From positions 732,001-796,000 of the forward strand of contig NC_013959.1 of NCBI RefSeq assembly GCF_000025705.1: a stretch of 64,000 bases of DNA. The letters run 5' to 3'. Origin of the DNA: Sideroxydans lithotrophicus ES-1. GTDB lineage: Bacteria; Pseudomonadota; Gammaproteobacteria; Burkholderiales; Gallionellaceae. The notes under the pieces are model-generated. The model saw nothing but the letters and a program-made list of their open reading frames with translations, did no database searches and was not told the origin of the DNA. Below are positions 60,499-60,606 of this stretch, in pieces (the stretch's first letter is position 1; each line of letters starts with the position of its first letter). The position numbers were made by a program, and so were the translations under genes.

Positions 60499-60606
60499 TT
60501 GCCTGACGGTCGGTCCGCAATGCCGACAGCTCAGGTTCCTCTCTGATAGGACACTCCCTCCTTTCAGCCTCAGCCTGTGACGCGGTGCGTCGCAGGTTTT
60601 TTTTGG
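60499..60606 (+). ncRNA. Candidate sigma-54-driven small RNA or attenuated leader
   Basis: About 108 nt from the predicted start to the T-run. A 5' stem-loop domain can form: CCTGA (60502-60506) with TCAGG (60531-60535), and inside it GTCGG (60509-60513) with CCGAC (60523-60527); an alternative ATTGC/GCAAT pairing exists. A pyrimidine tract CTCCCTCCTTTC (60556-60567), complementary to Shine-Dalgarno sequences, lies unpaired before the terminator hairpin. Whether it is released as an RNA or is a leader for the ferredoxin gene cannot be decided by reading. Confidence 0.5.
60576..60606 (+). terminator. Very strong intrinsic terminator upstream of the ferredoxin gene
   Basis: A 10-bp stem CCTGTGACGC/GCGTCGCAGG (one U-G pair) with a GGT loop is followed by eight T (60599-60606). 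It lies between the sigma-54 promoter and the ferredoxin gene, with no gene before it. Confidence 0.9.

Follow-up and report, generated by a model that had tools for sequence, protein, structure and literature searches.

Organization of the locus

The stretch of DNA analyzed here, which we call the window, comprises 64,000 nt of the single-contig, 3,003,656-base genome of Sideroxydans lithotrophicus ES-1 (G000:C1:732001-796000). At the locus of interest, an activator gene on the minus strand is followed by an inverted repeat, a sigma-54 site, a predicted RNA, an intrinsic terminator, and a ferredoxin gene on the plus strand (Table 1). The start of the RNA was set by the usual 12-nt rule from the sigma-54 site, as stated in PMC6606865. 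In the terminator, 12 stem pairs were found by scan, followed by a T8 tail of which two T's are also counted in the stem. A preliminary description of this DNA had already recognized the sigma-54 promoter, the structured RNA, and the terminator with eight U, and these hold up to within a few bases; its end point of 60606 moves back to the last base of the U-run, and the distance from there to the ferredoxin ATG becomes 48 nt (60605-60652) in place of 46.

Table 1. Features of the locus and of the adjoining iscA-nifU-nifS upstream region, in window coordinates.
Feature	Position	Strand	Basis
Divergent sigma-54 activator: PAS_4, AAA+ with GAFTGA, Fis-type HTH	59004..60359	-	Profile search
Inverted repeat TATGCCATTTATGGCA (TATGCCA-TTT-ATGGCA), proposed activator binding site (UAS)	60370..60385	+	103 bp 5' of TGGCA element
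Sigma-54 promoter TGGCACAGGGCTTGC (-24/-12), GG-N10-GC	60473..60487	+	Pattern counts; conservation among loci
Predicted non-coding RNA, 106 nt	60499..60604	+	Start by 12-nt rule; end at U-run
5' hairpin, sequence poorly conserved	60501..60536	+	Fold; identity 0.435
Pyrimidine linker UCCUCU, unpaired in window fold, proposed seed	60537..60542	+	Leads into CUGA; element 60537-60546
Middle hairpin CUGA..GGA-loop-UCC..UCAG, loop CACUCCC (60552-60558)	60543..60567	+	Fold and covariation
Intrinsic terminator: stem-loop 60572-60598, U-run 60597-60604	60572..60604	+	Terminator scan; covariation
YfhL-family dicluster ferredoxin, 3' of terminator	60653..60907	+	132.1 bits against a cut-off of 86
NifX-like (PF02579) protein, presumably in ferredoxin operon	60942..61322	+	Profile search
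TGT-N10-ACA repeat, upstream of iscA-nifU-nifS	61360..61375		Pattern match
Sigma-54 site TGGCACGCAGTTTGC, upstream of iscA-nifU-nifS	61470..61484		Pattern match

Promoter and upstream repeat

Sigma-54 promoters require an activator. The 3.0 Mb genome contains 10 matches to the pattern TGGCACN5TTGCW and 1 to a reversed control pattern, and the mean pairwise identity of the sigma-54 site over 16 loci is 0.875. Of all 27 copies of the RNA described below, 26 are preceded by TGG[C/T]A[C/T]-N5-TTGC (25 found by script and L217 by eye), and the promoter of L170 is degenerate, reading TAGCAC. The inverted repeat is matched exactly in the genome and has 129 matches with at most 2 mismatches, against 47 in a control. 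Its spacing to the TGGCA element is 102-105 bp in all 16 divergent regions, and in 20 of the 21 loci scored the best-scoring site lies at -92 to -104, with ties in L122 and L150; at L170 the site there ranks second.

A conserved RNA family in two bacterial families

The preliminary description had proposed a covariance search of the family and its relatives, and this search, once run, returned 27 RNA copies, spread over 25 genomes that belong to two families of one order. Within the family, 158 genomes yielded 21 copies in 19 genomes at E <= 5.5e-12. The other 6 copies lie in 6 of the 8 genomes of genus g87, from another family of the same order, and one of these genomes, G545, scores 75.3 bits although it stood outside the model training set. 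Those of G335 and G451 escaped detection at E <= 0.01 and were recovered with filters off (27.1 and 32 bits); both then served to train model R3, so later R3 scores for them are not independent. The order-wide search covered 399 genomes drawn evenly from a larger group, and other lineages carrying the RNA may have been missed.

Weaker matches were set aside. In the family search these were G044, G119, G173, and G196 (E 3e-4 to 0.008) and three antisense partial matches to the palindromic terminator; in the order-wide search, they were 14 of 22 genomes, scoring at most 33.4 bits, plus three antisense partial matches. Five of the weak loci dropped from the order-wide search were aligned and have mainly the terminator and C-rich letters in common. 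L009, L010, and L015 were dropped as duplicates of L121, L118, and L117.

Wherever a family genome encodes a close orthologue of the activator (16 genomes, that of the window included), promoter, RNA, and terminator occupy the same position, which is the joint conservation that the preliminary description had called for. Predicted RNA length varies between 88 and 106 nt over 26 copies, and among the 16 loci the stretch from promoter to U-run measures 90-106 nt, while the gap from terminator to gene ranges over 44-153 nt. In these loci mean pairwise identity reaches 0.77 in the core from linker to terminator but falls to 0.435 in the 5' hairpin region and to 0.34 past the terminator. Spacing is thus rigid where a free-standing RNA gene needs rigidity and loose 3' of the RNA.

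None of the covariance models of Rfam 15 matches near the RNA at its gathering threshold, and the three matches below threshold are to unrelated families (E 0.43 to 4). We recognized no earlier description of the RNA in the literature searched, which is weak evidence of novelty as most subscription journals lay outside its reach. The RNA element at this locus is real and conserved, Rfam 15 does not include it, and we are highly confident that it exists as an RNA gene. A leader peptide was considered and rejected: the ATG..TGA frame in the window RNA is out of frame in the few homologues read by eye.

Structure and C-rich elements

The window RNA folds with z = -3.87. Ten RNAs, this one included, gave z-scores of -3.28 to -5.63, and for each of them 0 of 200 shuffles were as stable. 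Single folds consist of a variable 5' hairpin, the pyrimidine linker, the middle hairpin, and the terminator. In an alignment of 26 copies, 93.8% of cells are paired, and 10 of 19 pairs have changed on both sides, in 25 such cells; controls with slid partners give 31-40% pairing and 1-4 cells changed on both sides. The observed covariation was matched by 0 of 500 shuffles on four of five measures and by 2 of 500 on the fifth. Both-side changes occur at 6 of 10 pairs in the terminator helix, which is 98.8% paired over 25 distinct sequences. The middle hairpin has such changes in 4 of its 9 pairs.

These alignments are model-fitted and hence biased toward structure. The least biased part of the covariation evidence is the swapped stems: in G335 and G451 the letters of the terminator stem are quite different and its pairing is retained. 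The terminator stem of L125 carries a compensatory change from G-C to A-U. Covariation is weaker when only the first 21 copies are used: 4 pairs have changed on both sides, a value that 5 of 500 shuffles attained, and 57 of 500 attained the observed pair types. An earlier alignment, in which L127 and L128 were misaligned and 3 of 13 pairs covaried, is superseded by the model-fitted ones.

The preliminary description saw an anti-Shine-Dalgarno element in the tract CTCCCTCCTTTC. Pairing through C-rich letters remains a plausible idea, but its placement there was wrong. Only the 5' part of the tract lies in a predicted loop (CACTCCC), with the rest, about half, paired in the middle hairpin, and the best conserved C-rich element is the upstream linker, UCCUCU running into CUGA, which the preliminary description had passed over. 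As CTCYCTG this linker is invariant in the 16 divergent-region loci; over the 27 copies it reads CTCYCTG in 22, CTCACTG in L162-L164, and CACCCTG in L196 and L198. It is mostly open by prediction, but only in part (0.21-0.58) in 7 of 26 copies (L118, L128, L162, L163, L164, L196, and L198). The middle loop contains CUCCC in 16 of the 27 copies and is otherwise C-rich in 6 (those of g87), and neither is the case in L127-L131. On these predicted folds, the C-rich linker and the hairpin loop are the likely pairing sites.

Downstream genes

The ferredoxin is not a constant partner of the RNA. A ferredoxin match over at least 79 of 84 residues lies downstream of 18 of the 27 copies, and in the other 9 an intact ferredoxin is absent beside the RNA, having been broken or replaced. 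At L125 (G026; 3090-3400) the ferredoxin lacks its start codon and its second 4Fe-4S cluster motif, and promoter and RNA are kept; the activator of this locus is open nearly to its C-terminus, where one TGA is flagged. At L150, the second RNA copy of G011, a 148-aa ORF comes next, together with the separated NifX-like gene. The second copy in G026, L170 (1440-1569), lies between rplQ and a DacA-like gene and has its -24 GG changed to AG, so perhaps it is a decaying or differently driven duplicate. In four g87 genomes, an alpha/beta hydrolase gene comes next (by profile scan in L217, from listed ORFs in L180 and L182, and by eye in L181); in G335 a NifX-like gene directly follows the RNA, and in G451 the next gene encodes a leucyl/phenylalanyl-tRNA transferase.

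The activator

In the 158 family genomes there are 16 close orthologues of the activator, the window's included, scoring at least 741 bits; the next match scores 547. An orthologue adjoins 22 of the 27 RNA copies; these comprise all 16 close orthologues of the family, all 5 from the orthologue search in g87, and that of G545. The copies that lack one are the second copies L150 and L170 and those of G013, G024, and G029, three genomes (the last 64% complete) that retain the repeat and show only a more distant activator of 508-515 bits. Counterexamples to this adjacency come from another family, in which G093 and G235 carry relatives of the activator, 68% identical, that stand opposite other genes and not opposite the RNA.

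The activator has a PAS domain with Cys and His residues and no receiver domain. Within the PAS domain, C60-x4-H65-x5-C71-x6-C78 is invariant in 22 orthologue sequences (21 distinct, since the window activator enters twice, as the query and as L116) and in 10 more distant ones. Such invariance suggests a candidate metal, heme, or Fe-S sensor.

Elsewhere in the same genome (L201; G000:C1:1130500-1136500) there is a paralogous PAS sigma-54 activator, 54% identical. Opposite it lie a sigma-54-like site, a small ORF, and the gene for cytochrome bd subunit I, and the arrangement in G093 and G235, read by eye, is similar. The arrangement suggests that the cytochrome bd oxidase could be under sigma-54 control, and a paralogue facing cytochrome bd subunit I is a hint of an oxygen or redox signal. 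In G235, a linker-hairpin-terminator with UCCUCCCUGA follows cydB and a short cydX-like ORF (L188, 1501-1555, minus strand); it scores 29.8 bits with R3 and could represent a relative of the sRNA within a 3' UTR or a chance match.

Relation to the nif genes

The preliminary description had tied the RNA to the neighboring nif Fe-S genes, a direct link that the comparison does not demonstrate. The activator scores 331.7 against the NifA profile, under the cut-off of 528.85. The iscA-nifU-nifS genes have a sigma-54 site of their own and a TGT-N10-ACA repeat, which we take to be of NifA type, and judging from these motifs are probably served by a separate NifA-type promoter; no TGT-N10-ACA occurs in 60341-60480. 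Given this separate NifA-type site, the sRNA is probably part of another regulon, perhaps one that senses redox state. Among the loci compared, which have short flanks, NifU matches occur only in the window's own genome, and the nif genes next to the RNA seem to be there by local coincidence. The nifD cut-off is exceeded more often in genomes that carry the RNA (16 of 19, against 24 of 139 without it; in the genus alone, 15 of 17 compared with 7 of 17; Fisher p 0.01), an association confounded by relatedness and by assembly completeness and given no weight here as a sign of function; relatedness may explain the enrichment.

Hfq and possible targets

Two features expected of an Hfq-dependent trans sRNA are present, an intrinsic terminator with a T8 tail and an encoded Hfq (103.1 bits). 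No target was found with a single short-gap RBS pattern in 5 genomes, where 15 matches (two at one place) against 7 in the control amount to no clear enrichment; the same pattern in the S. lithotrophicus ES-1 genome alone gave 1 match and 1 in the control. The rplQ RBS, AGAGAGGAA (window 52076-52091), perfectly complements the linker of the window RNA and is identical in G000, G003, G007, and G014, a degree of sharing expected from ribosomal RBS conservation alone.

A model for the locus and its alternatives

The unit, its conservation, its structure, and its gene contexts are established computationally. The DNA between the activator and ferredoxin genes very probably makes a regulatory RNA of about 105 nt that is kept with its activator even where the neighboring gene has been lost or replaced, and the RNA is a new family of a known kind. 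We consider a free-standing, trans-acting sRNA to be the best explanation and a fairly likely one. In this model, the divergently encoded PAS-type activator would bind the upstream repeat and switch on the sigma-54 promoter, probably after sensing oxygen, redox, or metal state through the Cys and His residues of its PAS domain. Most transcripts would end at the terminator to give the sRNA, and a minority would continue past it into the ferredoxin and NifX-like genes. Action of the sRNA would most likely be in trans and probably Hfq-assisted, with the C-rich linker and the hairpin loop pairing to G-rich ribosome-binding sites of other mRNAs.

If the RNA were instead a leader in which regulated termination sets the level of the ferredoxin/NifX-like mRNA, the short RNA would be a by-product. 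This alternative, also raised in the preliminary description, draws on the 18 copies that precede a full-length ferredoxin match and on the NifX-like genes after the RNA in G011 and G335; together with the finding of no sigma-70-like promoter in the terminator-to-gene gaps checked (window, L117, and L118), the ferredoxin contexts make a role in cis possible. In the 48-nt gap of the window, GGGAGGG and CTGAAA could moreover pair, by eye, with the CCCTCC and TTTCAG of the RNA after read-through. However, no competing antiterminator appears among the minimum-energy structures computed for the RNA alone in 26 copies, and the sequence between terminator and gene is unconserved. Above all, RNA and terminator persist in the 9 copies where the ferredoxin is broken or replaced, which favors a free-standing sRNA over an attenuator; it is chiefly on these gene contexts that the case for an independent RNA gene rests, and they leave a simple attenuator weakened to an unlikely reading. 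The same contexts bear on a mixed reading, in which one sigma-54 transcript would supply both a trans-acting sRNA and, by regulated read-through, the downstream mRNA as a single response. The frequent ferredoxin or NifX-like gene downstream, with no promoter of its own where checked, would fit such an arrangement, but the genes that follow in G451, in the second copy of G026, and in four g87 genomes are unrelated, and we regard it as improbable.

Two further readings concern the RNA itself. A structured RNA with two C-rich segments might titrate a protein, for example a CsrA-like regulator, in place of pairing with mRNAs. The GGA of the middle hairpin sits in a stem and not in a loop, though, and a typical CsrA sponge has more repeats than the few in the window RNA, so that we give this very little credence. 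Least credible of all is the notion that promoter and terminator alone are functional and the RNA between them a spacer; the poor conservation of the 5' hairpin region would agree with it, but conservation of both linker and middle hairpin extends over two families, and the latter shows covariation as well.

Returning to the free-standing sRNA, we can sketch a wider picture, with marginally more doubt than confidence: the new sRNA family and its Cys/His-PAS activator may form a two-gene module from redox to translation that predates its association with the ferredoxin or NifX-like genes, with one sensor family controlling microoxic respiration both transcriptionally, through the relatives that face cytochrome bd genes, and by way of an sRNA. 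If true, iron-oxidizing Gallionellaceae-type bacteria and one further family of the same order would possess a new sRNA family, and an uncharacterized group of Cys/His-PAS regulators, some of them facing cytochrome bd genes, would be tied to post-transcriptional control. Activator, binding repeat, promoter, and seed would together make a compact, testable system.

Comparison with known systems

To our knowledge, sigma-54-driven sRNAs with a dedicated neighboring activator are known mainly from Vibrio and enterobacteria. FnrS-type sRNAs are oxygen-responsive and have FNR as their regulator; the system proposed here would share with them the logic of an oxygen or redox regulator acting on mRNAs through an sRNA, with sigma-54 and an enhancer-binding protein (EBP) in place of FNR.

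The rhizobial alpha-r14/NfeR1 RNAs are described as having three hairpins, with the anti-Shine-Dalgarno motif CCUCCUCCC unpaired in each (PMC10746234). C-rich motifs in unpaired regions are common to both, but the window RNA, which comes from another lineage, lacks CCUCCUCCC and has one C-rich linker and one CUCCC loop. NfiS and NfiR are ncRNAs of the diazotroph Pseudomonas stutzeri that are reported to act on nifK and nifD mRNA. For NfiS there is a sigma-54 site, and mutation of rpoN abolishes the RNA (PMC6606865). The window RNA resembles NfiS in promoter type and lifestyle; unlike the case of the window RNA, the accessible part of that article describes no adjacent dedicated activator for NfiS or NfiR.

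Similar in layout are the Qrr sRNAs of Vibrio, which depend on sigma-54 and are driven by EBPs with upstream sites (PMC10162802), with qrr1 adjoining luxO (PMC8043402). The window system differs in that its activator has a Cys/His PAS and no receiver domain and in that no Rfam family matches near the RNA. What it has in common with Qrr/LuxO is the layout: a sigma-54 promoter, an adjacent EBP gene (22 of 27 copies), and an upstream repeat (20 of the 21 loci scored).
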